A DNA stretch of 64,000 nt, taken from positions 560,501 to 624,500 of the forward strand of contig NZ_JAYKZY010000002.1 of assembly GCF_035818615.1 (NCBI RefSeq), written 5' to 3'. Numbering within the stretch: position 1 is the stretch's first letter; each line of letters opens with the position of its first letter. The position numbers and the translations under genes were made by a program. Below are positions 1,691 through 20,891 of this stretch, piece after piece. Under the pieces are notes generated by a model that saw only the letters and a program-made list of their open reading frames with translations, did not search any database and was not told the origin of the DNA. This stretch comes from Sphingobium sp. CR2-8. Lineage in GTDB: Bacteria; Pseudomonadota; Alphaproteobacteria; Sphingomonadales; Sphingomonadaceae.

Positions 1691-2104
1691 ATGGCGGCCG
1701 AAATAATCGATAAAGTGACCGGCGCCACTGCCGAGGCCCCTGTCGATGCCATCATGTTGAACGAGCCAAGCGTCGTCCGCCTGCAATTGGACAGAGAGGC
1801 CATTGTTGCGCTGGAGCAGAATGGCGATGATCTGATCATCCGGTTGCAAGATGGCAACATCATCCGTGTTGGCAATTTTTACGAGCGGATCGACGGCAGC
1901 ACGAACGATCTGGTGCTGCGCGACACCGACGGCAACCAGTGGCTGGCCCGATCGGGAAGCCGCTTCCCGCGCTTTTCCTTGTTGAACGACCTCGACGAAC
2001 TCATTGGCGCTGCGAGCGGCGGCAGTGCAGCGGGATCGTCCCTGATATTGCCGGCCATCATCGGCGGCGTAGGCGTTGCTGGCGTGGCGACTGCAAGCGC
2101 ATCG

Positions 2105-3589
2105 GACGCGGATGCAGATGCAGATGCTGATGCTGATGCTGACGCTGATGCAGACGCTGACGCTGATGCTGATGCTGACGCAGACGCTGATGCTGACGCT
2201 GATGCGGATGCTGACGCTGACGCTGACGCTGATGCGGATGCTGACGCTGACGCTGATGCTGATGCTGATGCTGACGCTGACGCTGATGCTGACGCTGACG
2301 CTGATGCTGACGCTGACGCTGATGCCGATGCCGATGCTGATGCTGACGCGGATGCAGATGCTGATGCTGATGCTGATGCTGATGCTGATGCAGATGCAGA
2401 TGCAGATGCTGATGCAGATGCAGATGCAGATGCTGATGCTGATGCTGACGCGGATGCAGATGCAGATGCAGATGCTGATGCAGATGCAGATGCAGATGCA
2501 GATGCAGATGCTGATGCTGATGCTGATGCGGATGCGGATGCGGATGCGGATGCGGATGCAGATGCTGATGCTGATGCTGATGCTGATGCAGATGCTGATG
2601 CTGATGCAGATGCTGATGCCGATGCCGATGCCGATGCCGATGCAGATGCAGATGCTGATGCTGATGCCGATGCAGACGCAGACGCAGACGCGGATGCTGA
2701 TGCTGATGCGGATGCGGATGCGGATGCTGATGCAGATGCAGATGCAGATGCAGATGCAGATGCAGATGCAGATGCTGACGCTGATGCCGATGCCGATGCC
2801 GATGCCGATGCCGATGCGGATGCAGACGCTGATGCAGATGCCGATGCCGATGCAGACGCTGATGCTGACGCTGATGCCGATGCCGATGCGGATGCAGACG
2901 CTGATGCTGACGCTGATGCGGATGCCGATGCTGACGCTGACGCTGACGCTGACGCTGACGCTGACGCTGATGCCGATGCAGATGCAGATGCCGATGCCGA
3001 TGCCGATGCCGATGCGGATGCTGATGCCGATGCTGACGCTGATGCGGATGCAGATGCAGATGCAGATGCTGATGCTGATGCTGACGCTGATGCCGATGCC
3101 GATGCTGATGCTGACGCGGATGCAGATGCTGATGCTGATGCTGATGCTGATGCTGATGCAGATGCAGATGCTGATGCGGATGCGGATGCGGATGCGGATG
3201 CGGATGCCGATGCTGACGCGGATGCTGACGCGGATGCTGATGCTGATGCCGATGCAGATGCTGATGCCGATGCTGATGCTGATGCCGATGCTGATGCCGA
3301 TGCTGACGCTGACGCTGATGCAGATGCTGATGCCGACGCTGACGCTGACGCTGACGCTGATGCTGATGCCGATGCTGATGCCGATGCTGACGCGGATGCC
3401 GATGCAGATGCAGATGCAGATGCGGATGCTGATGCTGACGCTGACGCTGATGCGGATGCTGATGCTGACGCGGATGCCGATGCAGATGCAGATGCGGATG
3501 CTGATGCTGATGCCGATGCTGACGCTGACGCTGATGCGGATGCTGATGCTGATGCTGATGCTGATGCCGATGCCGATGCGGACGCCGAT
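2105..3589 (+). repeat. (Asp-Ala)n tract inside the adhesin
   Basis: 1485 bases of GAY-GCN hexamers encoding 248 Asp and 247 Ala in strict alternation, without one interruption. Synonymous positions vary (GAT/GAC, GCA/GCT/GCG/GCC), with much more GCT, GCA and GAT than in the Ig modules that follow. An identical block of about 90 bases occurs near 2311-2403 and 3079-3171, offset 768 bases, so the tract has grown by block duplication as well as by hexamer slippage. It acts as an extremely acidic linker between the N-terminal domain and the Ig rod. Confidence 0.95.
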
Positions 3590-4590
3590 GTCGACGAGCC
3601 TGCGCCACCGACGGCCAGCCTGAACGCGCAGGGATCGGTCTGTTCCGGTACGGCGGAGGCCAACGCCACGGTCGAGATCCGCGATGTCGATGGCAATCTG
3701 ATCGGCAGCGGTACGGCCGAGGCGGACGGCAGCTATGCCATTGCATTGGCCGAGCCGCTGACCAACGGCGAGACGGTGCGTGTCACGCAGATCGATGCGG
3801 CGGGCAATGTGTCGCCCCCTACGCTCGCTTTCGCGCCTGATTTTACCGCACCCCAAGCGCCTACAGCAGTTCTTGATACGCTGAGCAGCGTCGTGGGAAC
3901 CGGCGAAGCCGGTGCGACGGTTACCGTCAAAAATGCCGCCGGTACCGTGCTGGGCACGGGCCAGGTTGGGAGCGATGGCAGCTATATCGTGTCGCTCAGC
4001 ACGCCACAGAATGATGGGGAGACGCTGAGCGTTACTCAGACCGATGCTGCGGGCAACGGATCGCAACCCGCCTATCTGACCGCGCCTGACGGAACGGCGC
4101 CCGATGCGCCGGTCGCTACGATCGCCGATGACGGGCTGACCGTCACGGGCACCGGCGAAGCGGGCGCGACGGTTCGTATCTATGATGAGGGCGGCCTGCT
4201 GATCGGAACGACCACGGTCCAGGGCGATGGCACCTATTCAGCCACGCTGGACGTCGCGCAGACCAACGGCCAGGCGCTGACCGCGACGCAGGCGGACGCG
4301 GCAGGCAATCTATCCCTCCCCGCCAGCCTTACCGCGCCGGACAGTGATGCGCCCGCCATGCCCGGGGCCAGCATCTCCCCCGATGGCTCCATCGTGACCG
4401 GCAGCGGTGAGGCAGGTGCCGTAGTCGAAGTGCGCGATACGCAGGGGCTTGTGATCGGCAGCGATGTCGTACGGCCCGACGGCAGCTACACGGTGACCTT
4501 GACGCCCGCCTTGATCGATGGCGAGGCTTTGACCGTCATTCAAGTGGACCCCGCAGGCAATCCGTCGCTGCCCACGCCGATCACCGCGCC

Positions 4591-6147
4591 GGACCTGACG
4601 CCACCCGCTGCGCCCAGTGCGACAATCGCGTCCGATGGCGCGACGATCAGCGGCCGGGGCGAGGTCGGCGCGACGGTCACCGTGACCGACGCTGCGGGGA
4701 CGCCGATCGGCACGGCGCAGGTGGACGCCAATGGCGACTATCTGGTCGAACTGGATACGCCATTGATCGACGGGGAGGTCGTCAGTGTCATCCAGAGCGA
4801 TACGGCGGGCAATCCCTCACTCGGCACCAGTGTGACGGCACCCGATTACACGCCGCCGCCGTCGCCGACCGCGATGATCGACGGGACGGGGTCGGTGGTG
4901 ACCGGGTCGGTCGTCAGCGGTACCGGCGTTGCCGGGTCCATGATCGAGGTGCGCGCCGCCGACGGCACGGTGCTGGGCACCGGCGTGGTCGATGCGCAAG
5001 GCAATTTCACGGTGCGGCTGGACACGCCGCAGGTGGATGGCGAACCACTGGGTGTGGTGCAGCTGGACCAGGTCGGCAATCCGTCTGTACCCACACCAAT
5101 TATAGCGCCGGACCTGACGCCACCTGCTGCCCCCAGCGCGACGATCACGCTCGATGGTGCGACGATCAGCGGCCGGGGTGAGGTCGGCGCGACGGTCACC
5201 GTGACCGACGCTGCGGGGACGCCGATTGGCACGGCGCAGGTGGACGCCAATGGCGACTATCTGGTCGAACTGGATACGCCCTTGATCGACGGGGAAGTCG
5301 TCAGTGTCATCCAGAGCGATGCTGCGGGCAATCCCTCGCTCGGCACCAGCGTGACGGCGCCCGATTACACGCCGCCGCCCTCGCCGACCGCGATGATCGA
5401 CGGGACGGGATCGGTGGTGACCGGATCGGTCGTCAGCGGCACCGGCGTTGCCGGGTCCACGATCGAGGTGCGCGCGGCCGATGGCACGGTGCTGGGCACC
5501 GGCGTAGTGGATGCGCAGGGTAATTTCACGGTTCGGCTGGACACGCCGCAGGTGGATGGCGAACCGCTGGGCGTGGTGCAGCTGGACCAGGTGGGCAATC
5601 CGTCGCTGCCGACGCCGATCACCGCGCCGGACCTGACGCCGCCTGCTGCGCCCAGCGCGACGATCACGCTCGATGGCGCGACGATCAGCGGCCGGGGTGA
5701 GGTCGGCGCGACGGTCACCGTGACCGACGCGACAGGAACGCCGATCGGCACGGCGCAGGTAGACGTGAACGGTGATTATCTTGTCACGCTGGATACGCCC
5801 TTGATCAATGGGGAGGTGGTGAGCGTCATCCAGAGCGATGCGGCTGGCAATCCCTCGCTTGGCACCAGCGTGACCGCACCCGACTATACGCCGCCGCCCT
5901 CGCCGACCGCGATGATCGACGGGACGGGATCGGTGGTGACCGGGTCGGTCGTCAGCGGCACGGGTGTTGCCGGGTCCGTGATCGAGGTCCGTGCGGCCGA
6001 TGGCACGGTGCTGGGCACGGGCGTGGTGGATGCGCAGGGTAATTTCACGGTTCGGCTGGACACGCCGCAGGTGGATGGCGAACCGCTGGGCGTGGTGCAG
6101 CTGGACCAAGTGGGCAATCCGTCTGTGCCCACACCAATTACGGCGCC
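4591..6147 (+). repeat. 519-bp super-repeat, three copies, in the adhesin
   Basis: A unit of two Ig-like modules (173 residues) is repeated in tandem. The marker GGACCTGACG begins at 4591, 5110, 5629 and 6148, exactly 519 bases apart. The three copies are nearly identical and a partial fourth follows from 6148. One module of each unit carries a duplicated [15 protein letters not shown] segment, which makes the unit longer than two ordinary 84-residue modules. Confidence 0.9.
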
Positions 6148-7227
6148 GGACCTGACGCCACCTGCGGCCCCCAGCGCGACGATCACGCTCGATGGTGCGA
6201 CGATCAGCGGCCGGGGTGAGGTCGGCGCGACGGTCACCGTGACCGACGCTGCGGGGACGCCGATCGGTACGGCCCAGGTGGACGTGAACGGTGATTATCT
6301 TGTCACGCTGGATACGCCCTTGATCGATGGGGAGGTCGTCAGCGTCATCCAGAGCGATGCAGCGGGCAATCCCTCGCCCAGCGTCAGCGTGACGGCGCCC
6401 GACTATACGGCTCCACCGGTACCGACAGCCGATATAGACGACGCCGGGCGGGTCGTGACGGGCACGGGCGTTGCGGGATCGATCATCGCGGTGCGTGCGA
6501 CCGATGGCACGCCGCTCGGCAGCGCGATCGTCAATGCGCGGGGCAATTACACCGTCACCTTGTCGCCGCCACAGATCAACAGCGAGCCGTTGACCGTCAC
6601 CCAGTCCGATGGCGTCAATGTGTCCGGCCCGACCAACATAACCGCGCCGGACCTCACGCCACCCGATGTGCCGTTCGCCACCGTTGCGCCCGATGGCGCA
6701 TCCATCAGCGGTACGGGCGAACCGGGCGCGACCGTTACCATCACCGATCCGACCGGTTTCGAGATCGGCACCGCGACGGTCGGGGAAGATTCCACCTGGC
6801 AGACGACGCTCGTGCCGCCGCAGACGCATGGCGAGCCGCTCGGCGTGATACAAAGCGATGGTGCGGGGAATGATTCGCCGCAGCTTCAGGTCAATGCGCC
6901 CAATCTGAACGGCCCGGATGCGCCCGACCCCGTGACTGCCACGGTTTCAGGCAATGGCGAAACCGTCACCGGGACCGGCGAGATCGGCGCGACCGTCAGC
7001 ATCAGGGGGCCGGGCGGGCTTCTGCTCGGCACCGCGATCGTGGATGGGAACGGCGACTATAGCGTCGACCTCAACCCGCCGCAGCGCAATGGCGAAACAT
7101 TGGTGGCCGTGCAGACCGATGTCGATGGCTTCAGTTCGGTGCCCGTCCTGGTGATCGCGCCGGATATAACGGCGCCCGGCATACCGATCGCGCAGATCGA
7201 TCAGACCGGCGCTGTCGTGACCGGCTC

Positions 7228-7231
7228 GGGG
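7228..7231 (+). other. Frameshift site in the adhesin (GGGG)
   Basis: The first frame reads [11 protein letters not shown] then stops at 7247-7249. Adding one G here restores [19 protein letters not shown], matching the signature of neighbouring modules. The shift needed is -1. No tandem slippery heptamer is present in the zero frame, so a programmed shift is unlikely. Confidence 0.8.
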
Positions 7232-7440
7232 AGCGGGGCGCGACGGTGACGGTGCGGGATACCGATGGAACGACCATCGGCACGGGGACCGTCGATGGTC
7301 AGGGCCATTTTGCGATCACGCTCGCTGCGCCGCAAATTGATGGCGTGCCGATCAGCGTGACGCAGACCGACGGCGCGGGCAATGAGTCCGGTCCAGCAAT
7401 CCTTCCCACGCCGGACTTCACCGCGCCGATCGCCCCGACC

Positions 7441-8952
7441 GGCGTCATAACGGGTGATGGGACGGAGATCAGCGGCGCGGGCGAAGCTGCCGCGACGATC
7501 ACCGTTACCAATGCGGCCGGAACGGTCCTTGGCACGGCGCTGGTCGCCGGCGACGGCAGCTATAGCGTGACGCTGAACCCGGCGCAGGCCAATGGCCAAG
7601 CGTTGATCCTGGTCCAGGCCGATCCGGCAGGCAATGTGTCGCCGCAAGTGCCGATCACGGCGCCCGACATTACGCCGCCTGCTGCGCCCACGGGCACGGT
7701 CACGTCGGATGGTACGACGATGACGGGAACCGGCGAAGCTGGCGCGACGATCCGCATCACCGATCCGTCAGGAGCGCAGATCGGAACCGCCACTGTCGGG
7801 GTCAATGGCAGCTATGTCGCGACGCTGACGCCGCCGCAGGTGAATGGCGAGACGCTGGGCATCGTCCAGACCGATGCGGCCAACAATCCGTCGGTGCAGG
7901 TCAATGCCATCGCGCCGGACTTCACCGCGCCTGTCGCACCGACCGGCGTCATCACCGGCGATGGCACGTCGATCAGCGGTTCGGGTGAGGCCGGGGCTAC
8001 GATCCGGATCACCAATGCCGCCGGCACGGTGCTGGGCACGGCGCTGGTCGCTGGCGACGGCAGCTATAGCGTGACGCTGAACCCGGCGCAGGCCAATGGC
8101 CAGGCGCTGACCCTGGTTCAGGCCGATCCGGCAGGCAATGTATCGCCGCAGGTGCCGATCACGGCGCCCGACATCACGCCGCCCGCTGCACCTACAGGCA
8201 CGGTCACGTCCGATGGCGCGACGATGACGGGCACGGGCGAAGCCGGTGCGACGATCCGCATCACGGATCCGTCAGGCACGGTGATCGGCACGGCGATCGT
8301 GGCCGCCAATGGCAGCTATGTCGCGACACTGACGCCAGCGCAGGTGAATGGCGAGACGCTGGGGATCGTCCAGACGGACTCTGCCAATAATCCATCGGTA
8401 CAGGTCGCTGCCATCGCCCCCGACATCACTGCGCCTGTCGCGCCGACCGGCGTCATCACCGGCGATGGTACGTCGATCAGTGGCTCGGGCGAGGCCGGGG
8501 CCACGATCCGGATCACCAATGCGGCCGGCACGGTGCTGGGCACGACGGTGGTCGCTGGCGACGGCAGCTATAGCGTGACGCTCAGCCCGGTGCAGGCGAA
8601 TGGCCAGGCGCTGACCCTGGTTCAGGCCGATCCGGCGGGCAATGTGTCGCCACAGGTGCCGATCGCCGCGCCCGACATCACGCCGCCTGCAGCACCTACG
8701 GGCACGGTGACGTCCAATGGCGCGACCGTGACCGGCACGGGCGAAGTGGGCGCGACGATCCGGATCACCGATCCGGCTGGTACGGTGATCGGCACGGCGG
8801 TGGTAGTCGCCAATGGCAGCTATGTCGCGACGCTCACGCCGCCGCAGTTGAATGGCCAGACGCTGGGCATCGTACAGACCGACGCCGCCAACAATCCCTC
8901 CATCCAGGTCAATGCCATCGCGCCCGACACCACCGCGCCGCTCGCACCGACA
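7441..8952 (+). repeat. 504-bp super-repeat, three copies, in the adhesin
   Basis: Two 84-residue Ig modules repeat as a 168-residue unit. The marker GGCGTCAT begins at 7441, 7945 and 8449, exactly 504 bases apart. The first module of each unit carries [10 protein letters not shown] and the second ITDPSG. This family differs from the 519-bp family, so the Ig rod was expanded by at least two separate tandem duplications. Confidence 0.9.
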
Positions 8953-11900
8953 GGAACGGTGTCGGCCAGCGGCACGACTGTGACCGGCACGGGCGAAGCG
9001 GGTGCGACGATCCGCATCACGGACCCGTCGGGGACGGTGATCGGGACTGCGCTGGTGGCCGGGGACGGCACCTATAACGCGACGTTGACCACGGCGCAGA
9101 CCAACGGCCAGACGCTGGGCATCACCCAGACGGATGGTGCGGGCAATGTGTCGCCACGGGTGCCGACGATCGCGCCTGACAGCACGCCGCCTGTCGCGCC
9201 TACGGGCACGGTGACGTCCGACGGGACGGTCGTGAACGGCACGGGTGAGGCGGGCGCGACGATCCGGATCACCGATCCGGGCGGGACGGTGATCGGCATC
9301 GCCACGGTCGCCGCCAATGGCACCTATAGCGCGACGTTGACCACGGCGCAGACCAACGGACAGACGCTGGGCATCAGGCAGGCCGATGCGGCGGGCAATG
9401 TGTCGCCGCAGGCCACGACGCTTGCGCCCGACACCACCGCGCCACTCGCGCCGACCGGCACGGTCGCTGCCGGTGGTGTCGAAGTCACCGGCCGTGGCGA
9501 ACCCGGCGCGACCATCCGCATCACCAATGCGGCCGGCGTCACGCTGGGCACGGCGCTGGTGGCAGGCGACGGCACCTACAGTGCGACGCTGTCCAGTCCG
9601 CAGACCAATGGCGAGCGGCTGACGCTGGTCCAGGCGGACCCCGCAGGCAATGTGTCGCCACAGGTGCCCCTGACCGCGCCCGATACGACGCCACCCCCGG
9701 CGCCGACCGCCGCCATCGCCGCCAATGGCGGATCGGTGAACGGACAGGGTGAGGCTGGGGCGACGATTACCGTCAGAAATGCCGGTGGCACCGTTCTGGG
9801 CACCGCCATCGTCGCGGCCAACGGCACCTATTCGGCAACGCTCAGCCCCGCTCAGCTCAATGGCGAGCAACTGACCGTCAGGCAGACGGACGGGGCCGGC
9901 AACAGTTCGCCGAACATCGCTATCACCGCGCCCGATCAGACCGCGCCCAATGCCCCGACGGCGACCGTTTCCCCTACCGGAACAGTCGTGACGGGTGCAG
10001 GTGAAGCCGGTGCCACCGTTACGGTGACGAACGCCGCGGGCGTCGCGATCGGCAGCGCGCTGGTCGCGGCCAATGGCACCTATTCGGTGACACTGAGCCA
10101 GGCACAAGCCAATGGCGAAACCGTGCGGGTCTTCCAGACCGATCCGGCGGGCAATGCGTCGACCCTCACCAGCGTCCTTGCGCCCGACATCACGGCGCCG
10201 TCTGCGCCAGCGAACCTGGCCGTCAACGGCACCGGCACCACGCTGACGGGCATCGGCGAAGCCGGGACCACGGCCCAGGTGCGGGATGGAACGGGTACGG
10301 TGATCGGCTCGGGACTGGTGGGACCGGATGGTCGCTTCTCGATCACGCTGGGCAGTCCGCAGATCGGCGGCCAGAATCTGACCGTCACCCTGACCGACGC
10401 GGCAGGCAACCAGTCCATTCCAGCCGCCGTTGGCGCACCGTTCGATATCGCCGCGTTCGACAACAGCACCATCGCGCTGGTCGATCTGCTGCCGGTGTCG
10501 ACAAGCGTCAATCATGGCACCGCCACCTATACGGCGCTGGTGTCGCTAGGGGCGCTCAACCTGGATGCGCAGGTGCTGGCGACCCCCAATGTGCAGTTCA
10601 CCGTGGCCGACGGACACAGTCTGAACGCCGTCTTCACCTACGATGCGCTGCTCAGCATCGGCGTTCTGAGCGGCTATTCCGTGGGCGTGCAGCGTTGGAA
10701 CGGCACCCAATGGGTGGCCGTGGGCGGTGGCAGCGGGGCATCCGTGCTGCAACTGAGCCTGCTGAACGGGGATCTGGTCAGCACTGAAACGCTGGCGCCC
10801 GGCCAGTATCGCGCCTTCGTGACGTTCGATGGCACATTGGGCGTGGGCCTGCTCGGGGCGCTCAACGTAGCGGGGACCGATTCCGATTTCACCGATATCG
10901 GCGGGATCGTGCCGCAGCAGATCCAGGGCAATGTCATCACCGATCCCAGCCCGGGCGGTTATGTTGACATCGTCAGCCCGCAAACCGTGATCCAGAGCGT
11001 GACCGTCAACGGCGTGACGACGGCGGTCAATGCGAATGGCACGGTGGTCAATGGCGCGTTCGGCCGCCTAGTCATCAACCTGGACGGCAGCTACAGCTAT
11101 ACGCCGTCGGCCAGCGCCGCGGCGATCGGCAAAACAGACGTGTTCCAATATACGCTGGTCGACCGGAGCGATGGCGAGACGGAGACGGCCACCCTGTCCA
11201 TTGCCATCGGCAGCCCCGACATCACGGCCGCGCCGGTCGCCAATCACGACACGGCAACCGCATCCGTGCGCTACCAGAATGTGGTGCAGACCGTGTCGGC
11301 CGCGCTGGACGGGACGTTCACGACAGCCGGGGCCATACTTCTCAATCCCGGCGTGGGATCGAAGTCGAACAGTTTCACCGTTGCGGCAAACAGCGAGTCG
11401 GACATCACATTCACCGTTATCCGCACCGGTTTGCTGAGCGTTTTGCCCAACTATACGATCACGGTGAAGAATGCGGCCAACGTGACGGTCGGCACTTATT
11501 CGGCCACATCCGTTGCCGGGCTTCCCTTGGGGTCGGGCATCACGCACACGTTCAACGATCTGCCGTCCGGCACCTATACCTACACCGTATCCAGCGCCAA
11601 CGCGTTGGGTGCGAGCTATGTATCGAACGTCTATATCGGTCAGTCGATCACCCATTTCGACCAGTTCACCGTATCGGGCGTCACTGGCACGCAGGGCGAA
11701 CTGTTGGCCAATGACGTGACCGGCACGGCCTTCCCGGTGGTGAAGGTCGGCACCGGCAGCGGCTTCGTGGAGGTCGGCGAGACGCCGATTACCATCACGG
11801 GTGTCTATGGCCGACTGACGGTGAACGAAACCGGCCACTACAGCTACACGCCGAACACCAATATCGCGCATTCCACGGTCAATCTGGTGGACAGCTTCAC

Positions 11901-12540
11901 CTATCAGGTGGTGCAGCCCAATGGGGTGGCCGCCACGGCGACGCTCGATGTGACGATCAATGTCGGTACCGGCACGATATCGTCGCTGATGGCGATGGAG
12001 GATGCCACCTTGCGCTTTGACGATGCGGCGGCGGTCAGCGACGAACCGCATCATCTGGCGCGGTCAGCGTCCGAACCGGCGGTCGCCACGGCATCGGAGC
12101 CTGCGACGATGACCGAGCCTGCGCATGAACCCGACACGCTCGTGGCGGCGGCGGCGGACGATCCCGTGGCGACGGGCGCCGAACCGGCGGCTACGACGGT
12201 GTCCGACGCCGTGCTGGGCGAGCTGGCCTATCAGATGTTCGAAGGACAGGGCATGTTGGAGGATGTGCTGTCCGCCTATCTCGATCGCCAGCCATTGCCG
12301 GAACATGTCGATCTCACCGCAACAGCGGCGTCTGTAACGGACAGCATCGACCTGACACCTATTGATGCACCGCAGGATCCGCTAGGATATCTGTCCACAT
12401 CGGATGATATCGAAAAACATAACATAAGTAATACTCATGTGTTATAGTCAATCACTGTAACAATAGAGAACGATGAAATTCATAATCATGACAATATCAT
12501 AACAACATCTTAACATTAGTATGTTCGTAACCAATGCCAC

Positions 12541-12577
12541 CCATCCTGGTCATGACTGAAAGGTATGACCGGGATGG
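12541..12577 (+). promoter_or_regulatory. Hairpin enclosing the tolC-like start codon
   Basis: Arms 12541-12553 and 12565-12577 are complementary over 13 positions with one G-T wobble. The AAAGG ribosome site (12559-12563) lies in the loop and the ATG at 12565 opens the right arm, so translation of the secretion genes could be controlled by folding. The preceding 12448-12540 is an AT-rich stretch, unusual for this genome, with no gene. Confidence 0.5.
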
Positions 12578-13896
12578 AAAAAGGGTTCCATAGCGGCACT
12601 GGCTGTCTCCTCATGGCAGGCAGCCTGCTGATATCGTCTGCGTTTGCGCAGACCGGAGCGACGGTTGATCCCGCCGGGCCGGTTACGCTGGAGAGCGCGG
12701 CGCGCGAAGCCATCGCCTGGCACCCTGCGCTGACGCAGGCGGCAGGCGATCTCAATGCACGCGGGGAAGACGTCAACGTCGCGCGTGCCGGCTATTCGCC
12801 GCAGATCAGCGCAGGCCTGGCGACAGGCTATGACAGTCGCCTGACCGGCGACTGGCGTCCGCGCCCGCAGGTCAGCGCGTCGCAGATGATCTACGATTTC
12901 GGCAAGGTCGGCAGCGCCGTGGATGCGGCGGAGGCGGGCACGCGGGTCGGCGCTGCCGACATGCTTCTGGCGATCGATGGCCTGATCCGCGACATCGGCT
13001 ATGCGCTGATCGAGGCGCAACGCGGCGAAGCCCTGCACCAGGTGGCGTTGGAACAGCTGGAGCGTGTCCGCGCCATCAGCGATCTGGTGGACAGCCGCGT
13101 CGGCAAAGGCGCGGCGACCCGGTCCGACGGGCTACAGGCGCAGGCACGGGTGGAAGCGGTGATCGCCACCCTGTCGCAGATCGAGGCGGCGCGTCGCCGC
13201 TGGTCGAGCAATCTTGCTTATCTTCTGGGCCGGTCGGCGCCGCCGACGCAGGTCGATGCGGACGTGCCCGGGTGGCTGATGGCCGCATGTCGGCAACCCC
13301 CGCCCGATTGGGACATGGTGCCCGCAGTCATGCGGGCGGAGGCGCAGAGGGATCGCGCGGTCGCGGACCTGCGCCGCAGCAAGGCGGAGCAGAAACCGAC
13401 CATCTCCATCGGCGGCACGGGCACGATCGACGTGTCCAATCCCTTGTCCGACCGGCGCAGCGCCTATTCGCTGGGCTTCAACGTGACGAACAATGTGTTC
13501 GGCGGCGGCATCACCAAGGCGCGGGTGCGCGGCGCGGCCTATGCACTGGACGCCGCCGATGCCGCGACCGAACGCGCGCGCAACGAAACCGCCCAGCGCC
13601 TGGCCGAAGCGCAGCAGCAGATCGACAGTCTGGCCGCGCTGCGCAAGACCCTGGCATCGCGGCAGGACAATATGAACGAGACGGGCAAGCTGTATCGCCT
13701 GCAATATCTGGAGATGGGCACCCGCACCTTGGTCGACCTGCTCAACGCCGAGCAGGAGTTCCAGCAGGTCCGCTTCGAAGCGACCAACGCCACCCACGAC
13801 CTGCGGCGGCTCCAGATGGATTGCCTCTATCATTCGGGCCGCATGCGGGCGGCTTTCCGCCTGACCGGCACGGTCGTGCGCGGGGTGACGCTATGA
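12565..13896 (+). CDS. TolC-family outer-membrane protein of a type I secretion system
   Basis: The outer-membrane channel of the adhesin exporter (443 residues, the usual size for TolC/LapE-like proteins). A signal peptide ends about AFA-QT near residue 29. The body is helical with TolC-like repeat features: YSPQISAGLATGYDSR, QMIYDFGKVGSAVDAAEAG, and in the second half LGFNVTNNVFGGG and LYRLQYLEMGTRTLVDLLNAEQ, the last being the conserved second-repeat signature of the family. It begins 117 bases after the adhesin and its stop codon overlaps the start of the ABC transporter by four bases (ATGA), so it is the first gene of a coupled four-gene operon. The start codon lies in a hairpin described separately. 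Confidence 0.92.
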   Translation: MTGMEKGFHSGTGCLLMAGSLLISSAFAQTGATVDPAGPVTLESAAREAIAWHPALTQAAGDLNARGEDVNVARAGYSPQISAGLATGYDSRLTGDWRPRPQVSASQMIYDFGKVGSAVDAAEAGTRVGAADMLLAIDGLIRDIGYALIEAQRGEALHQVALEQLERVRAISDLVDSRVGKGAATRSDGLQAQARVEAVIATLSQIEAARRRWSSNLAYLLGRSAPPTQVDADVPGWLMAACRQPPPDWDMVPAVMRAEAQRDRAVADLRRSKAEQKPTISIGGTGTIDVSNPLSDRRSAYSLGFNVTNNVFGGGITKARVRGAAYALDAADAATERARNETAQRLAEAQQQIDSLAALRKTLASRQDNMNETGKLYRLQYLEMGTRTLVDLLNAEQEFQQVRFEATNATHDLRRLQMDCLYHSGRMRAAFRLTGTVVRGVTL

Positions 13897-16061
13897 ACAT
13901 GATGCCGCCGGTCCGTCCGACCGTCCGCCCGGCCGTCAGTGCGGGGACGATCGACGCCTGGCTGGAATTGCTGCAACAGGTCGCGCATCATTATGGTCTG
14001 CCCAATAGCGAACAGGGCGCCAGGCTCGCGGGTCTATGGGCCGGGATGGACGGGGAGCAGGCGAAGGTCCGCGGCATGGCGCGCGCGCTGGGTCTGTCCG
14101 TCCGGTTCAAGGTGCCCGGCGTCGGGGAGCGGCTGTCGGGATGGCGGCTGCCGATGATCGTGCGGATGAGCGACGGCGCGCTGGCGCTGGTGACGGCCAT
14201 ATCGGAGGATGGCGAGGCGACCCTGTCGCTGGCGGGCGAAGGCGGACTGCGTGCGCATATGCCGATGGCTGACATCGCGCGGGGCGCGACCCTGCTGGCG
14301 ATCGCCCGGCCGGTGCGCGCGGCACCCGATGCGCGGGTGGACCCTTATATTCATCAACATCAGGATAACTGGCTGCGGCGTATCCTTTATCAGGACGCGC
14401 GCTCTTACGGCCATGTGATGGTGGCGTCGTGCATTGCCAACGTCCTGGGCCTGTCGGGCGTCATCTTTTCCATGCAGGTCTATGACCGGGTGGTCCCGGC
14501 GGAATCCTATCCCACCCTCTATATATTGGCGCTGGGCGTGGCGTTGGCGATCGGCTTCGACTTCCTGCTGCGGCGGCTGCGGATGAACATCGTCGATGTG
14601 CTGGGCAAGCGGGCGGACCTGCGCATGTCGGACAAGGTGTTCGGCCATGCTCTGCGCGTGCGCAACCGGGCGCGACCGACTTCCACCGGCACCTTCATCG
14701 CGCAATTGCGCGACCTGGACCAAGTGCGGGAACTGCTGACCTCCACCACCGTGGCCGCGATCGCGGACCTGCCCTTCTTCCTGATCTTCCTCGTCATCCT
14801 GTGGTTCATCGGCGGGCCGCTGGTGCTGGTGCCGATCGCGGCGCTTTTCCTGCTGATCGTGCCCGGCCTGCTCGCGCAGCGACGGCTGCGCACCTATGCC
14901 ACCGCGTCGATGCGCGAATCCTCGCTGCGTAATGCGATGCTGGTGGAGGCGGTGCAGGGCATAGAGGATATCAAGGCGTTGCAGGCCGAGGAACGGTTCC
15001 AGCAGCATTGGAACCGCTACAATGCGCAAGCGGGCGAGGCGCAGTTGAAGCTACGCGGCCTGACCAACAGCCTGACGGTCTGGACGCAGAATGTGCAAAA
15101 TGGCGTCTATGCCGGGATCGTGTGCGTCGGCGCGCCGATGGTGATCGCAGGCGACATCACGACCGGCGCATTGGTCGCATCGTCCATATTGGGATCGCGG
15201 ATGATGGCGCCGATGTCGCAGGTGACGGCGCTGCTCAGCCGTTTCCAGCAATCGAAGGTCGCGATCGGCAGCCTCAACCAGATCATGGCGCTGCCGGTCG
15301 ATCGGCCCCACGCCGAACATCGTATTTCGGTAAACGCGATTGCGGGCGCGATGACGATCCATTCGGGCGTGTTCAGCTATGCCGACCCGAACAGCCCGCC
15401 CGCCCTGACCGTGCCCGAACTGGAGATCGCGGCAGGTGAGAAGATCGCGCTGCTCGGCCGCAATGGCGCTGGCAAATCGACCCTGTTACAGGCGCTGTCG
15501 GGCATGTTGCAGCCGGTGTCGGGCGAAGTGCTGGTCGACAATCTGGCGCTGGGTCATATCGACCCCAACGACCTGCGCCGCGACGTGAGTTTCCTGTCGC
15601 AGCATAGCCGCCTGTTCCACGGGACCATCCGCGAAAATCTGACACTGGGCGCGCCCGACGTGTCGAACGAGGAAATACTCTCGATGCTGGCGATGACCGG
15701 GGCCATCCAGTTCGTCCGCCGCCTGCGCGCCGGGCTGGAGCATGTCATCCTGGAAGGCGGGCAGAGCCTGTCGGGCGGGCAGATCCAGTCGTTGCTGCTG
15801 GCCCGGCTGCTGCTGCGGCATCCGCGGGTCGCGCTGCTGGACGAGCCGACCGCGGCGATGGACGAGGTATCCGAACGACACTTCATCGACGGCCTCAAGA
15901 CATGGGCGCAGGACCGGACGCTGGTGATCGCGACCCACAGGATGCGCGTGCTGGAACTGGTCGACCGGGTGATCGTGATCGACAATGGCACGATCCTGCT
16001 CGACCAGCCCAGGGATGCGGCGCTGCGCACCATGCAGGCCAATAAGGCGAGGGTGGCATGA
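13893..16061 (+). CDS. Type I secretion ABC transporter, permease/ATPase (LapB-like)
   Basis: The inner-membrane energy-coupling subunit of the adhesin exporter, 722 residues. Residues 1-140 look like a C39 peptidase-like domain without any cysteine, so it probably binds substrate and does not cut it, as in other RTX/LapB transporters. A six-helix membrane domain follows (about 170-440). The ATPase has Walker A GRNGAGKST (522-530), signature LSGGQ (626-630), Walker B VALLDEP (646-652) and the H-loop histidine at 682. The start overlaps the tolC-like gene and the stop overlaps the HlyD gene, both as ATGA, which indicates translational coupling. The adjoining adhesin is the obvious substrate. 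Confidence 0.95.
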   Translation: MNMMPPVRPTVRPAVSAGTIDAWLELLQQVAHHYGLPNSEQGARLAGLWAGMDGEQAKVRGMARALGLSVRFKVPGVGERLSGWRLPMIVRMSDGALALVTAISEDGEATLSLAGEGGLRAHMPMADIARGATLLAIARPVRAAPDARVDPYIHQHQDNWLRRILYQDARSYGHVMVASCIANVLGLSGVIFSMQVYDRVVPAESYPTLYILALGVALAIGFDFLLRRLRMNIVDVLGKRADLRMSDKVFGHALRVRNRARPTSTGTFIAQLRDLDQVRELLTSTTVAAIADLPFFLIFLVILWFIGGPLVLVPIAALFLLIVPGLLAQRRLRTYATASMRESSLRNAMLVEAVQGIEDIKALQAEERFQQHWNRYNAQAGEAQLKLRGLTNSLTVWTQNVQNGVYAGIVCVGAPMVIAGDITTGALVASSILGSRMMAPMSQVTALLSRFQQSKVAIGSLNQIMALPVDRPHAEHRISVNAIAGAMTIHSGVFSYADPNSPPALTVPELEIAAGEKIALLGRNGAGKSTLLQALSGMLQPVSGEVLVDNLALGHIDPNDLRRDVSFLSQHSRLFHGTIRENLTLGAPDVSNEEILSMLAMTGAIQFVRRLRAGLEHVILEGGQSLSGGQIQSLLLARLLLRHPRVALLDEPTAAMDEVSERHFIDGLKTWAQDRTLVIATHRMRVLELVDRVIVIDNGTILLDQPRDAALRTMQANKARVA

Positions 16062-17245
16062 ACGCGGCGGCGATGGACGACGAATGGCAGTTCGACGACG
16101 AAGGCCGCAGCCGCCTGACGGGCGCCAAGCGGCTGCTGTGGCTGGTGACGGCGCTATTCGTGGTCGCCTTCACCTGGGCCTGGTTCGCCAAATTGGATGA
16201 GGTCGCCAGCGGCAGCGGGCGCGTGGTGCCGACCAGCCGGGAACAGATTATCCAGTCGCTCGAAGGCGGCATCATGGCGAAACTGCTGGTTCGTCGGGAC
16301 GACATCGTGCAGCCGGGGCAGATATTGGCCCAGCTCGACCCCACCCAGGCGGGATCGACGGTGGATGAAAGCGCCGCCAAATATCGCGCCGCGCTGGCCA
16401 GCGCGGCGCGGTTGCGGGCGGAAGTCAGCGGGACCGCCATCGCCTTCCCCTCCGAACTGGACGATTATCCCGATCTCAAGGCCGCCGAGGCGCGGCTGTA
16501 CCAGGACCGGCGGCAGAGCCTGGCCAGTTCGGACAGACTGATCGATGAATCACTGGCGCTGATCAACAAGGAAGTCGCCATCGGCGAATCGCTGATCGCG
16601 GTCGGCGCGGCGAGCAATGTCGAAGTGCTGCGACTGAAACGGCAGCGCGCCGAACTCGCGCTCAAGAAAGCCGATCTGCGGTCCCAATATCTGGTCGAGG
16701 CGCAACAGGATCTGGCGAAGGTCAGCGAAGAGGTGGAGGCGCTGGCCCCGGTCGTGCGCGGCCGGTCCGACACGCTCCAGCGCCTGACGCTGCGGTCGCC
16801 GGTGCGGGGCGTGGTGAAGAGCATCGAGGTTTCCACCATCGGCGGCGTGGTGACGCCCAATGGCGAGATCATGCAGATCGTGCCGCTGGACGACCAGTTG
16901 CTGATCGAGGCGCGGATCGCGCCGCGCGACATCGCCTTCATTCATCCCGCCCAGCGCGCGACGGTCAAGATTACCGCCTATGACTATGCCATCTATGGCG
17001 GCCTGGAAGGCGAAGTGGCGAGCATATCGCCGGACACGATCAGGGATGAGGTGAACCCGGACGTCTATTATTACCGGGTGTTCGTGCGAACCAAATCGGT
17101 GTCGCTGGTCAACAAGGCGGGCAAACATTTCCCGATCGTGCCGGGCATGATCGCGACGGTGGACATCCACACCGGCAGCAAGACGGTGATGCAATATCTG
17201 CTGAAACCCCTGAACCGTGCCCGTGAAGGACTGCGCGAGCGATGA
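16058..17245 (+). CDS. HlyD-family type I secretion membrane-fusion protein
   Basis: The periplasmic adaptor linking the ABC transporter to the TolC-like channel, 395 residues. A single N-terminal membrane segment (about residues 26-45, ending WAWFAKLDEVASG) is followed by a lipoyl-like half motif (SLEGGIMAKLLVRRDDIVQPG), a long coiled-coil hairpin, the second lipoyl half (LRSPVRGVVKSIEV) and a beta-rich C-terminus ending PLNRAREGLRER, the typical HlyD/LapC ending. Four-base overlaps join it to the ABC gene before it and the Mur-ligase fusion after it. Confidence 0.95.
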   Translation: MNAAAMDDEWQFDDEGRSRLTGAKRLLWLVTALFVVAFTWAWFAKLDEVASGSGRVVPTSREQIIQSLEGGIMAKLLVRRDDIVQPGQILAQLDPTQAGSTVDESAAKYRAALASAARLRAEVSGTAIAFPSELDDYPDLKAAEARLYQDRRQSLASSDRLIDESLALINKEVAIGESLIAVGAASNVEVLRLKRQRAELALKKADLRSQYLVEAQQDLAKVSEEVEALAPVVRGRSDTLQRLTLRSPVRGVVKSIEVSTIGGVVTPNGEIMQIVPLDDQLLIEARIAPRDIAFIHPAQRATVKITAYDYAIYGGLEGEVASISPDTIRDEVNPDVYYYRVFVRTKSVSLVNKAGKHFPIVPGMIATVDIHTGSKTVMQYLLKPLNRAREGLRER

Positions 17246-20200
17246 ACGCGATGATCGACCAGAAACTGTCCGCGATCGCGGAAAAGGTGGCGCAGGCCCC
17301 GAGCGTGACGATCGACGGCGCGCCACGCACGATCCTGTTCCTGTCCTTCACCGACGGCACGGCGCGGGCGCGGACGATCACCTTGTCGGGCCCGGACGGG
17401 TCAAGCTGCTGGCGGTCGGCAGTGCCGATATTGATGGCGGCGGCGGATCAGTTGCGTTGGCTGCGGGTCGATTGGGTCCGCGCGGTCGAACAGAGCGACT
17501 GGCGCAGCCTGCGCCAGCGTCTGGGCGCGACCAAGCGCAACTATTTCCGGCTTGGCATAGCGCTCGACGCGCGGCTGGAACGGGCTTTCCTGGAAACGGA
17601 GATCAACGCCAACGCCATGTTCTACGGCGGCCAGGGGCATCCGACCGCCATCGTCAACGAAGGCAATATCCGCCGCTATGCCCGGCTGCGCCACTGTGCA
17701 GGCGCGATCGACTTCGGCGACGATGCGCCTGTCTGGCTCTTTTCGACCGGGGGCCTGTTCATGGGCGAGGATGGCGTCGTTCATACGATCGGCGGGCAGG
17801 GGCGCAATGCCGGGCGACGGACGGTGGATCGGCTGGACCCGGACCTGCTGCTGCGCCTGATCGATGACGGCAGCGCCTATCTGGCGTCGCAGGTGCGGGC
17901 CGATGGACGATTCCATTATGGCTGGCACCCCTGTTTCGACAGGGAGATCGCCGCCTATAACAGCCTGCGCCATGCCAGCAGCACCTATGCGATGCTGGAA
18001 AGCTGGGAGGTGACGCGCGATCCGGATCTGCTGGCCGCGATCGAGCGGGCGCTGACCTATCTGGAGCGCGTTCTCATCGCGTCGGTCGATCTGCCGAACG
18101 GGACGCCGGCGGCGTTCCTGATCGATCCGGGCAACGAGATCAAGCTGGGCGGCAATGCCGTCTGCCTGCTGGCGCTGGTCAAATATAGCGAACTGATGGC
18201 GACCGATCGCTATCGCGTGCTGCTCGATCGGCTGGCGACGGGCATCCTGTATATGCAGGACGCCGCGACCGGCCGCTTCGTCCATGTCCTTGATTATCCG
18301 ACCCTGGCGGTGAAGCAGGAATTTCGGATCATCTATTATGATGGCGAAGCGGCGTTCGGGCTGATGCGGCTATACGGCCTAACCCGCGATCCGCGCTGGA
18401 TCGCGGCGGTGACGCTGGCCTTCGACCATTTCATCGCGGCGGGCCATGCATCGGCGCACGATCATTGGCTGGGCTATTGCGCGAACGAGCTGACCCGGCA
18501 CCAGCCCAGCGAAACCTGGTATCGCTTCGGGCTGGACACTATTCGCGACTATCTCGACTTCGTGGAAAGGCGCATCACCACCTTCCCCACTTTGCTGGAA
18601 CTGATGATGGCGGCGCAGCATATGATCGCGCGCCTGGCCGCCGACCCGGACCACAGCCATCTGCTGGACAGCATCGATCTCGTCCATTTCGATCGGGCGC
18701 TGCATGCCCGCGCCCATTATCTGCTCAACGGCCATTTCTGGCCCGAACTGGCGATGTTCTTCGCCAATCCACGCCGGATCGTCGGCAGTTTCTTCATCCG
18801 CCACCATGGCTTCCGCGTGCGGATCGACGATGTCGAACATTATCTGTCGGGCCTTATCGCCTATCGTCGTCACCTGCTGGACCGTCAGGTGCAGGCCCCT
18901 GTGTCCCCGCCCGAAAGCGGCTGGACCGCGCGCAGCGTGGCGCAGGCGACCGGCGGGCGCTGGATAGCGCCGCCGCCCGCCGACTGGAGCGCGCAGGGCC
19001 TGTGCATCTTCCCGCTCAGCCAGCGCCCGGGCGATATGGTCGTCGTGCGGGGACGGGAAGGCGAGCGCGGCATCGCGCCGCGGGCGATCGACAGCGTGAA
19101 GCCGCGCGCCAGCGCCATCATCACCAGCGCGCCGGAGCGTTTCGCAGCCAGCGGCCTTCCCGTGCTGGCGGTGCAGGACAATGACGATGCGATACTGGCG
19201 CTGGGTCGATATGCGCGCGCGGCCATGACCGGCAAGCTGATCGGCGTGACCGGCAGCGCGGGCAAGACGACGATGGTCGCCATGCTGGCGCGCGCGTTGC
19301 GCCCCTGGGGTGATGTCGGCGAGACGCGCCTGAACGCGAACCTGCCCCATGGAATCGGGTGGAACCTGGCGTCCATCCCCTGGAATACGCCCCATATCGT
19401 GATGGAACTGGCGATCGGCCGCATGCGGCAGAATGCGATGCTCACCCGTCCCGATATCGCGGTTTTCACCAACATCGCCGCAGCCCATCTGGAATATCAT
19501 CATGATCTGACCACGGTCGCGCGGCGCAAGAGTGCGATTTTCCAGGGCATGGCGCCGGGCGGCGTCGCCATCCTGAATGCGGACATGCAGCAACTCGCCA
19601 GCGTCCGGGCGCTGGCGCAGGCCCGTGACCTGTCCGTCGTCACCTATGGCCTGTCGCCCGAGGCGGATTTCCGCCTGATCGATCGGCGCGAGGGTGCGAT
19701 CATGGTGCAGACGCCGGGCGGCGCGCTGCACTATCGGCTGGCGGCGCCCGGACAACATATGGTGCTCAACAGCGTCGCCGTGCTGGCGACGCTGTCCGTC
19801 CTGTCGCTGGACGCGGGCAGGGGGCTGGATGCGCTTGCCGACTTCCGTCCGCTGGCGGGGCGTGGCGAGGAACTGGCTCTGACGATCGAGGGGCGACGGC
19901 TTTGCCTGATCGACGACGCCTATAATGCCAACCCCGAATCCATGGCCGCCGCGCTGGCGCTGCTGGGCGCGCGACGGGGCAGGCGGCGCGTCGCTGTGCT
20001 GGGCGAAATGCTGGAATTGGGTCCGGAAGCGACGCGCTATCACAGCGCGCTCGAACCGCTGATCCACGCCCATGGCATCGATCGCGTCCATGTCGTGGGC
20101 AAACATTATGCACAGCTATGGGCCGGTCTGCCCAGAGCGCGTCGGGGGCTTTACGCCGATGATGTCGGGCAGTTACGCACCTGTCTCAAAGACATGATCG

Positions 20201-20295
20201 AGGATGACGATGTGCTGTTGATCAAAGGCTCGCATGGCAGCGCGGTGCATCAACTGGTCGACCAGTTGAAGGCCGATGCCCGGCAGATATCATGA
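17242..20295 (+). CDS. Fusion of an alpha-helical toroid-like domain to a MurF-like amide ligase
   Basis: A 1017-residue protein in two halves. Residues 560-1017 form a complete MurF-like ligase of normal length: UDP-substrate domain (GWTARSVAQATGG, GDMVVVRGREG), P-loop GVTGSAGKTT (668-677), ELAIGRMRQNA, FTNIAAAHLEYH, the carbamylated-lysine position K763 in RRKSAIF, DDAYNANPESM (891-901), GEMLELG and the final KGSHGS. MurF normally joins D-Ala-D-Ala to UDP-MurNAc-tripeptide. Residues 1-555 are predicted mostly helical with repeated hairpin-like segments (YNSLRHASSTYAMLESWE, YYDGEAAFGLMRLYGLTRD), resembling alpha/alpha-toroid proteins; I cannot name the family. No signal peptide is seen, so it should be cytoplasmic. 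It overlaps the HlyD gene by ATGA and so belongs to the adhesin secretion operon rather than the mur cluster. All key ligase residues are present, so it should be active; its acceptor is unknown. Modification of the adhesin is my inference. Confidence 0.85.
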   Translation: MNAMIDQKLSAIAEKVAQAPSVTIDGAPRTILFLSFTDGTARARTITLSGPDGSSCWRSAVPILMAAADQLRWLRVDWVRAVEQSDWRSLRQRLGATKRNYFRLGIALDARLERAFLETEINANAMFYGGQGHPTAIVNEGNIRRYARLRHCAGAIDFGDDAPVWLFSTGGLFMGEDGVVHTIGGQGRNAGRRTVDRLDPDLLLRLIDDGSAYLASQVRADGRFHYGWHPCFDREIAAYNSLRHASSTYAMLESWEVTRDPDLLAAIERALTYLERVLIASVDLPNGTPAAFLIDPGNEIKLGGNAVCLLALVKYSELMATDRYRVLLDRLATGILYMQDAATGRFVHVLDYPTLAVKQEFRIIYYDGEAAFGLMRLYGLTRDPRWIAAVTLAFDHFIAAGHASAHDHWLGYCANELTRHQPSETWYRFGLDTIRDYLDFVERRITTFPTLLELMMAAQHMIARLAADPDHSHLLDSIDLVHFDRALHARAHYLLNGHFWPELAMFFANPRRIVGSFFIRHHGFRVRIDDVEHYLSGLIAYRRHLLDRQVQAPVSPPESGWTARSVAQATGGRWIAPPPADWSAQGLCIFPLSQRPGDMVVVRGREGERGIAPRAIDSVKPRASAIITSAPERFAASGLPVLAVQDNDDAILALGRYARAAMTGKLIGVTGSAGKTTMVAMLARALRPWGDVGETRLNANLPHGIGWNLASIPWNTPHIVMELAIGRMRQNAMLTRPDIAVFTNIAAAHLEYHHDLTTVARRKSAIFQGMAPGGVAILNADMQQLASVRALAQARDLSVVTYGLSPEADFRLIDRREGAIMVQTPGGALHYRLAAPGQHMVLNSVAVLATLSVLSLDAGRGLDALADFRPLAGRGEELALTIEGRRLCLIDDAYNANPESMAAALALLGARRGRRRVAVLGEMLELGPEATRYHSALEPLIHAHGIDRVHVVGKHYAQLWAGLPRARRGLYADDVGQLRTCLKDMIEDDDVLLIKGSHGSAVHQLVDQLKADARQIS

Positions 20296-20408: not shown

Positions 20409-20891
20409 ATGGCCTCGCGCGATGGACGCAGATTGGAAGTATCGGCACAGAATTTCGCCGATCCGTCGTTGCTGTCCCTTGCCCGGCAAACGCAGCAGGC
20501 GCGGATCAATTGTTCCCAGCATTTCCCCAAGAATGTGTTCCGCGATTCCGCCTGGGACATCATGCTGGAACTGTTCATCGTGGCCGAAGAAGGGGGCAGG
20601 ATGTGCGTCAAGGACACGATGGCGATTTCCGGGGAGAGCGCGACCGGCACGATACGCCGGATCGAGGGGCTGGAGGAAGCCAAGCTGATCGTGCGACGCT
20701 ATGATCCTGTCGACCATCGCCGGATGCTGGTGGAACTGAGCGGAAAGGGCCGGGCGGCGATGGTGTCCTTCCTGCACCATCTGTTCGAAGTGGGCGAGGC
20801 CGCGTCGAAGGCCGACCAGCCGGTCAAGCCCGTGACATTCGTCCCCCTTGCCCCGCGTCGGCCCAATGACGACCTGCGCGACCGTTCCTGA
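20409..20891 (+). CDS. MarR-like winged-helix regulator
   Basis: A 160-residue protein with a winged-helix core: helix-turn-helix segment VKDTMAISGESATGTIRRIEGLEE (split here as VKDTMAISGES / ATGTIRRIEGLEE), followed by a wing with RRYDPVDHRRMLVELSGKG, which is the MarR-type pattern of D-x-R-R then L-T/S-x-x-G. The N-terminal 50 residues are likely a dimerisation helix and the last 30 a disordered tail. It is not in an obvious operon; it follows the Mur-ligase fusion after 113 bases in the same direction and may regulate that locus or act elsewhere. Target and ligand unknown. Confidence 0.75.
   Translation: MASRDGRRLEVSAQNFADPSLLSLARQTQQARINCSQHFPKNVFRDSAWDIMLELFIVAEEGGRMCVKDTMAISGESATGTIRRIEGLEEAKLIVRRYDPVDHRRMLVELSGKGRAAMVSFLHHLFEVGEAASKADQPVKPVTFVPLAPRRPNDDLRDRS

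Follow-up and report, generated by a model that had tools for sequence, protein, structure and literature searches.

The window analyzed here is the whole 64,000-nucleotide stretch of Sphingobium sp. CR2-8 (C2:560501-624500 of a genome of 4.5 Mb). It contains a BapA/LapA-type type I secretion adhesin operon, with genes for a BapA_N adhesin (in two frames), a TolC-family protein, a LapB-type ABC transporter and an HlyD-family adaptor, and 3' of these genes lies a gene coding for a fusion protein in which a predicted (alpha/alpha) toroid is followed by a MurF-derived ligase (Table 1). Sequence comparisons make it quite probable that this fusion protein modifies the long alternating Asp-X tract of the adhesin from the same operon, and the chances are about even that its Mur half amidates the Asp side chains of this tract.

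Co-occurrence of the toroid and the Asp-X tract

When the DNA of the window is scanned for alternating Asp, a single tract is found in the 64 kb, in which residue X is Ala at 247 positions and Val and Glu at one position each. No alternating-Asp tract is found in 36 background Mur loci (147,418 bases). Merging toroids at 98% identity brought the 75 toroid loci down to 67 distinct ones, an adhesin stretch being taken together with the toroid locus of its genome. In the DNA initially retrieved for these 67, a tract is seen in 40, a LapB-type exporter in 43, and an exporter or a tract in 52. The homologues occur mostly beside exporters or tract proteins, and the first-pass annotation, which had assigned the gene to the adhesin operon, is borne out in this respect.

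When a BapA_N-type domain of the adhesin is in view (E threshold of 1e-8 in the main counts), the tract is present in 21 of 22 toroid loci. Ten further toroid genomes, searched with a threshold of 0.001, include eight with such a domain; all eight have a tract, of 42 (at a contig end) to more than 900 Asp, which in three cases is on the contig of the toroid itself. Combined, the tract is present in 29/30 toroid loci or genomes having the adhesin N-domain, compared with 0/4 toroid-less operons in which the N-domain is 46-48% identical and HlyD is followed by a MarR-like gene (L088, L089, L090 and L116). A modification step for the exported protein, which was one of the initial suggestions, is the best reading. 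The tract is also absent from a fifth toroid-less genome (G201) with a weaker N-domain match (E 2.4e-7); over all toroid-less LapB-type loci fetched the count is 0/12, the whole adhesin not being in view in all 12. The Fisher test of tract versus toroid gives 1.1e-4 with the four controls and 1.2e-9 with the 12 controls, uncorrected for kinship. At most three candidates per genome were scored in the LapB search, by which toroid-less LapB loci are under-sampled, and the plasmid records inspected were picked by hand (13 of 54 with a toroid match, and 7 of 58 with a LapB match, the latter as toroid-less controls).

In the one tract-less case with the N-domain present (G275), 34 of 91 near-invariant toroid residues are changed, and its toroid gene is, as judged from these changes, a decaying gene. 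Among 22 toroids, 17 have 0-5 changes at the 91 positions, L038 and L045 have nine, L112 has 12 and L042 has 21. No tract is in view in L042 or in L112 (Acinetobacter baumannii), the adhesin of the latter being seemingly incomplete at its start.

The first tract of a type I adhesin starts, in most cases, about 100-180 residues after the predicted beginning of the protein (16 residues in L125), the staphylococcal tract ends 45-52 residues before the C-terminus and the long tract of Listeria ends 218 residues before it. Going by these sequence positions, the tract lies toward the anchor, at the envelope-proximal end, in these classes.

The Mur half keeps catalytic residues and lacks MurF substrate-region residues

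Among NCBIfam profiles, residues 561-1011 of the fusion protein are matched best by MurF models, without reaching their cut-offs (236.6 and 239.5 bits in two comparisons, the curated cut-off being 288.6). Four further Mur-ligase matches are present in the genome at C2:918-926 kb, one of which is a MurF above this cut-off, at 356.7 bits. Glu722, His749, the carbamyl-Lys763, Arg874, the YNAN region, Lys995 and Ser997 are retained in 135-136 of 136 fused relatives, and the catalytic and nucleotide residues of the P-loop, carbamyl-Lys, YNAN and KGS regions taken together in 118-136 of 136 fused Mur proteins. These counts derive from a first table of 142 rows, from which six rows without the P-loop motif TG[SA]xGK[ST] were left out, such that the P-loop figure is partly by selection. 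Four of the six are not Mur proteins; the other two, P0061 and P0269, are (having TGTAGKTT), and seven positions were recounted on all 138 Mur rows. Lys675 of the P-loop, Lys763 and His749 are found in 138/138. Asp33, Arg35, Asn140 and Pro145 (numbered as in the MurF of the window genome) are each present in 30/30 MurFs drawn from a 40-genome phylum sample, and in 0, 1, 0 and 0, respectively, of the 138 fused Mur proteins, that of the window included. Located as they are in the first Mur domain and close to the P-loop, these four residues would bind the UDP-sugar-peptide.

The sequences support that the fusion protein is not the wall MurF, because it scores under the MurF cut-off, which the murF of the same genome passes, and because the substrate-region residues are lost. 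The first-pass annotation had likewise thought a cell-wall MurF unlikely, and the check on a separate murF agrees with it. Its description of a complete MurF with all motifs intact holds for the catalytic residues; it fails for the substrate region, and the match stays below the MurF cut-off. Compared with MurF, the UDP-MurNAc-tripeptide:D-Ala-D-Ala ligase, the window protein shares ancestry and catalytic core, and differs by its lost substrate-region residues, its fusion to a toroid and the presence of a separate true murF. That it is a second genuine peptidoglycan MurF, found beside an adhesin by chance, would explain why MurF models match best; given the cut-off result, the loss of the substrate-region residues throughout the relatives compared and the conserved adhesin linkage, the probability of this is negligible.

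The same residues bear on anchoring, in which the Mur half would add a D-Ala-D-Ala-like end and periplasmic transpeptidases would join the adhesin to peptidoglycan. The S11 DD-carboxypeptidase-like domain of some relatives (L017 and L053) and the envelope-proximal place of the tract would suit this idea, which had been raised initially, but the MurF substrate-region residues are gone, and the same toroid accompanies sortase-anchored LPXTG proteins and an autotransporter, which makes it very improbable. The sensing of wall precursors, also raised initially, finds no support for the first of these reasons.

In a FastTree tree of 60 sequences and 450 columns, for which 23 of the fused Mur domains were sampled, the Mur ligases associated with tracts group as a single clade (support 0.948) inside the MurF group, beside alphaproteobacterial MurFs. 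This clade takes in two separate staphylococcal ligases and two ligases from CapA-containing proteins.

The toroid half and its exchangeable partners

No Pfam family matches residues 1-555 of the fusion protein, in agreement with the earlier description of an unrecognized helical half; a fold can nevertheless be predicted for residues 196-552, being the (alpha/alpha) toroid of the N-acylglucosamine/cellobiose 2-epimerase type. Unlike the members of that superfamily, to which the identity is 13%, the window toroid has an extra N-terminal domain and an adhesin context. Its near-invariant residues include His408, His521 and His533, which are candidates for the catalytic His pair of the epimerases, and many Arg, Lys and His residues are conserved. 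Weak profile matches are to the sugar-acting families GH88, GH76 and C5-epimerase.

The fold and these weak matches would fit a protein that makes a soluble sugar-peptide precursor, in which the toroid isomerizes a sugar and the Mur half adds an amino acid, with another enzyme attaching the product to the adhesin or exporting it. Mur ligases normally use sugar-linked carboxylates, which also speaks for such a precursor. On the other side, no transfer enzyme turns up repeatedly next to the gene when sphingomonad loci are compared (with a limited query set), partner-less toroids beside tracts (L038 and L111) would feed nothing, and the tract link and the GtfC genetics discussed below point to the fusion protein itself. 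A precursor pathway is considered unlikely.

At E <= 1e-20 the toroid is found in 9/396 (order), 14/398 (phylum) and 11/397 (family) genomes of overlapping samples, and because of these counts it is an accessory gene. The protein searches, in which only the candidates sharing most words were scored, each list 120 matches. Among the matches listed, the nearest named relatives of the fusion protein are from Sphingobium, toroids without a fused partner are mostly 500-630 residues long, and the toroid is fused to a Mur ligase in many relatives. In others it is fused to ATP-grasp ligases, to a glycosyltransferase (L113 of Klebsiella aerogenes, and L046), to a CapA-like domain and a Mur ligase (L028 and L031), to a Mur ligase and an S11 DD-peptidase-like domain (L017) or, as a weak match (17.2 bits, cut-off 22.6), to an Asp/Asn-hydroxylase-like domain (L032). 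The interchangeable partners are thus Mur ligase, ATP-grasp ligase, SdgB-type glycosyltransferase, CapA-like, hydroxylase-like and S11 domains.

These partners bear on the possibility that the protein is a chaperone, merely keeping the polyanionic tract unfolded and export-competent, with any enzyme activity secondary or lost. Long acidic disordered tracts may want shielding, and a toroid rich in conserved Arg, Lys and His could provide it. However, the catalytic Mur residues are retained, and a holdase does not explain why the recognized partners are enzyme families (the hydroxylase-like one weakly so). A chaperone role is rated as still less probable than the precursor pathway.

The toroid-only proteins L109, L110 and L111 carry the database name poly(glycerol-phosphate) alpha-glucosyltransferase, which appears to be wrong because no NCBIfam glycosyltransferase family is matched by them at E <= 0.001.

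The S11 DD-carboxypeptidase-like domain is either fused to the Mur half or encoded directly 3' of it (L017, at 10001-13867, and L053); SxxK, SxN and KTG-like motifs are discernible in the L017 sequence. CapA-like (PGA_cap) domains occur in the relatives L028, L031, L043, L044, L050 and L057. A CapA-like protein is a peptide epimerase in a lasso peptide pathway, and such an activity would suit a tract-modifying role. An alpha/beta-hydrolase gene of about 355 codons repeatedly adjoins the toroid-ligase gene (L017, L019, L021, L022, L027, L053, L115, L123 and L127). In the Sulfitobacter locus L114, a toroid-Mur gene and a BapA-prefix protein having 134 alternating Asp are found amid condensation-domain and polyketide synthase genes.

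Partner and tract type, and the tract-toroid link across export routes

A glycosyltransferase partner is found with an Asp-Ser tract in 3/3 cases and a Mur or ATP-grasp partner with an Asp-Ala tract in 27/29 (p = 0.002); eight tract loci are outside this comparison, having a hydroxylase-like partner (two) or none found by the queries used (six). The partner glycosyltransferases match the SdgB/SdgA models best (139.4, 138.3 and 763.8 bits), all being under the exception cut-offs of 800. The chief reason for suggesting Asp side-chain amidation is this pairing: the Asp-Ala tract offers Asp carboxylates, as activated by a Mur or ATP-grasp ligase, and the Ser hydroxyl of an Asp-Ser tract can take a sugar.

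The genes are also found together outside type I secretion. In L038 a solo toroid gene follows that of an autotransporter, in which a (DG)89 tract precedes the beta-domain. In Staphylococcus simulans the gene of an LPXTG protein, SdrD-like and with a tract that is mostly Asp-Ala, and in Staphylococcus haemolyticus that of an unannotated LPXTG tract protein crossing the record start, is followed by separate genes for a toroid and for a Mur ligase. In Staphylococcus epidermidis a protein with an Asp-Ser tract comes first, then the toroid and, on the opposite strand, an SdgB-type glycosyltransferase (the match of 763.8 bits). In Listeria a solo toroid accompanies an LPXTG protein that has 134 alternating Asp. 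The staphylococcal toroid matches are at 34.6-38.5% identity among the records listed. From these sequences, the link between tract and toroid appears to hold across type I exporters, an autotransporter and LPXTG proteins.

Relation to GtfC and other known systems

GtfC (SACOL0051), of 538 residues, is encoded directly after pls and is not recognized by CAZy; GtfD has 503 residues (PMC5230774). In S. carnosus and in S. aureus SA113sdgA/sdgB, Pls is fully glycosylated only when both are present; GtfD alone gives weak glycosylation when taken from strain COL and none when taken from strain 1061, and GtfC without GtfD gives none (PMC5230774). The published primers GtfC-F and GtfC-R map within the toroid gene of S. 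haemolyticus, the former without a mismatch and the latter with one. GtfC-mutF maps close to the end of the preceding tract protein and GtfD-mutF close to that of the toroid gene, which fits the order pls-gtfC-gtfD, and the reverse complement of GtfD-F encodes VARYSP, which is present in the S. epidermidis SdgB-type protein. Because the primers fall in the toroid gene and the flanking primers fit the gene order, the staphylococcal toroid is very probably GtfC, an assignment made by primer matches.

The Pls system resembles that of the window in having a toroid-family protein, encoded right after a tract protein, and a partner enzyme, and the Pls repeat region that is the target of GtfC and GtfD has SD and AD units (PMC5230774). 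In contrast to the window, with its fused MurF-derived ligase and its tract of mostly Ala at X, the Pls partner is a glycosyltransferase and the sugar is most probably on Ser. GtfC has been described as a glycosyltransferase, whereas the fold predicted here for its family is the 2-epimerase-type toroid.

SdgA and SdgB act on Asp-Ser tracts (PMC3794999, PMC8561734), and the glycosylation by these enzymes shields Clf and Sdr proteins against proteolysis (PMC3794999). The likeness is that long Asp-X stalks of surface adhesins are modified, and the toroid of L113 and of L046 has an SdgB/SdgA-like domain joined to it; the differences are the Ser target and that no toroid or ligase is mentioned in the parts of the SdgA/SdgB descriptions at hand. 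The window does not match an SdgA/SdgB system in its partner, a Mur ligase with no glycosyltransferase match within 4.5 kb 3' of it, nor in its tract, where X is Ala in 247/249.

Cyanophycin synthetase CphA, a Mur-type ligase that amidates Asp side chains, is alike in the chemistry proposed; CphA makes its own poly-Asp, whereas the Asp chain of the window is ribosomal. The window protein is not itself a cyanophycin synthetase (25.9 bits, the model cut-off being 850), and it has no ATP-grasp match.

Stalks of Asp-Ser and of Asp-Ala have been described for Acinetobacter BAPs and for staphylococcal SdrI/SdrJ, and in the available parts of these reports no Mur ligase is described with such stalks (PMC4647330, PMC4850167, PMC8360574).

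Proposed modification of the adhesin stalk

It is proposed that the unfolded adhesin stalk is modified in the cytoplasm, ahead of type I export. Type I secretion substrates exit unfolded. The step is placed before export because the adhesin is synthesized in the cytoplasm and exits in this state, and because no export domain is found on the toroid protein, in which Pfam recognizes the Mur half alone and to which no signal-peptide predictor was applied. The toroid half would be the constant part, binding the alternating-Asp chain and perhaps acting on it, as in the staphylococcal GtfC type. The MurF-derived half would be the exchangeable catalytic part, in which ATP activates a carboxylate to which an amine is joined. 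The amide would most likely be on the Asp side chains of the Asp-Ala tract, by a cyanophycin-synthetase-like chemistry on a ribosomal protein target, and in some relatives an SdgB-type glycosyltransferase would replace the Mur half on Asp-Ser tracts. The sequences show the domain anatomy, the retained catalytic residues, the loss of MurF substrate-region residues, the tract link and the swapping of partners; the cytoplasmic action, the role of the tract as substrate and the amidation at Asp are inferred. Aspartimide or isoaspartate could also be formed, through an acyl-phosphate; small X residues (Ala, Ser and Gly), such as those of the tracts, favour Asp cyclization. By analogy with Sdg glycosylation, likely effects on the stalk are charge masking, protease resistance and stiffness.

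Several observations weigh against this proposal. The tract is missing from 27/67 distinct toroid loci in the DNA first fetched; eight of these 27 were resolved from the same genome, but in five of the eight the adhesin part is on another contig, so that the link is by genome, and the genomes of L031 and L034 gave no match when searched for the N-domain. Five toroids with only 0-5 changes (L043, L044, L049, L051 and L055) have neither a LapB-type exporter nor a tract in about 9 kb. These five may act in trans; the genome that holds L043 and L044 (G756) encodes one more toroid, L045, next to an Asp-Ser tract. The loss of toroid residues and the loss of the tract are not strictly matched, since L038 and L045 carry tracts yet have nine of the 91 residues changed. 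A Mur partner is found with an Asp-Ser tract in L045 and with a mostly Asp-Ser tract in L126, and directly 3' of the toroid no partner is matched by the queries in the tract loci L030, L036, L038, L054, L111 and L124. SdgA and SdgB are described, in the text available, on Asp-Ser tracts without mention of a toroid-type protein. The matched control is small (four loci), and seven of the 12 toroid-less loci were hand-picked from 58 plasmid records.

A gene-adjacent modification of dipeptide-repeat stalks is of a known kind; the MurF-derived ligase and the toroid fold are new in the literature searched. In its full form, the proposal is that a MurF paralogue uses ATP to attach groups by amide bonds to the Asp side chains, hundreds of them, in a ribosomal (Asp-Ala)n stalk, and that one toroid subunit serves with interchangeable tools in bacteria ranging from Alphaproteobacteria to Listeria and staphylococci. 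This would be an undescribed class of modification, by which the base of a giant adhesin would carry a protein-borne cyanophycin-like polymer, and is put forward tentatively, with slightly less than even chances. A domain that is unannotated, or labelled in databases as poly(glycerol-phosphate) alpha-glucosyltransferase or MurF, would then be a tract-modification factor common to Gram-negative and Gram-positive adhesins. This would give a role to Asp-Ala stalks, which Ser glycosylation cannot serve, and would suggest the repurposing of a cell-wall enzyme for protein modification. GtfC of the Pls system, the biochemical role of which is left open in the available parts of its descriptions, could be re-read in the same way.

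The adhesin operon

The operon assignment is in agreement with the profile matches of BapA_N in the adhesin (76.3 bits, cut-off 27), TIGR03375 for the LapB-type transporter (763.6 bits, above cut-off), TIGR01843 for the HlyD-family adaptor (314 bits, above cut-off) and OEP for the TolC-family protein (114.1 bits, cut-off 22), for which TIGR01844 is under its cut-off (198.8 bits versus 225.15). No glycosyltransferase match is found within 4.5 kb 3' of the fusion gene, the rest of the genome not having been searched for one.

Table 1 Features of the adhesin operon in the window
Feature	Position	Strand	Remarks
Adhesin, N-terminal reading frame	1691..7249	+	BapA_N prefix domain, Asp-Ala tract, Big_6 repeats
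Alternating Asp-X tract, proposed substrate	2105..3598	+	249 Asp; starts 138 residues after adhesin start
Adhesin, C-terminal reading frame	7246..12447	+	Big_6 repeats, BapA/Bap/LapF C-terminal domain
TolC-family outer membrane protein	12565..13896	+	profile matches
LapB/LssB-type type I secretion ABC transporter	13878..16061	+	profile matches
HlyD-family adaptor	16058..17245	+	profile matches
Toroid-MurF-like fusion protein, 1017 residues	17242..20295	+	open reading frame, Pfam and NCBIfam profile searches
Predicted (alpha/alpha) toroid, N-acylglucosamine/cellobiose 2-epimerase type, residues 196-552	17827..18897	+	
MurF-derived ligase, residues 561-1011	18922..20274	+	catalytic residues present, MurF substrate-region residues gone
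Small MarR/winged-helix-like gene	20409..20891	+	HTH_27, 19.4 bits, under cut-off 22.2

The 249-Asp tract, the interruption of the adhesin frame, the swapping of partners and the Gram-positive branch were not seen in the first-pass annotation. The adhesin frame is interrupted at 7246-7249, within the Big_6 repeats, which results in two overlapping open reading frames (1691-7249 and 7246-12447); this is either an assembly error or a real break. In sphingomonad operons the toroid gene is positioned between HlyD and the small winged-helix/MarR-like gene, and homologues of the latter follow operons of this type with or without the toroid gene (L007-L016, L018, L020, L023-L025, L029, L088-L090 and L116).

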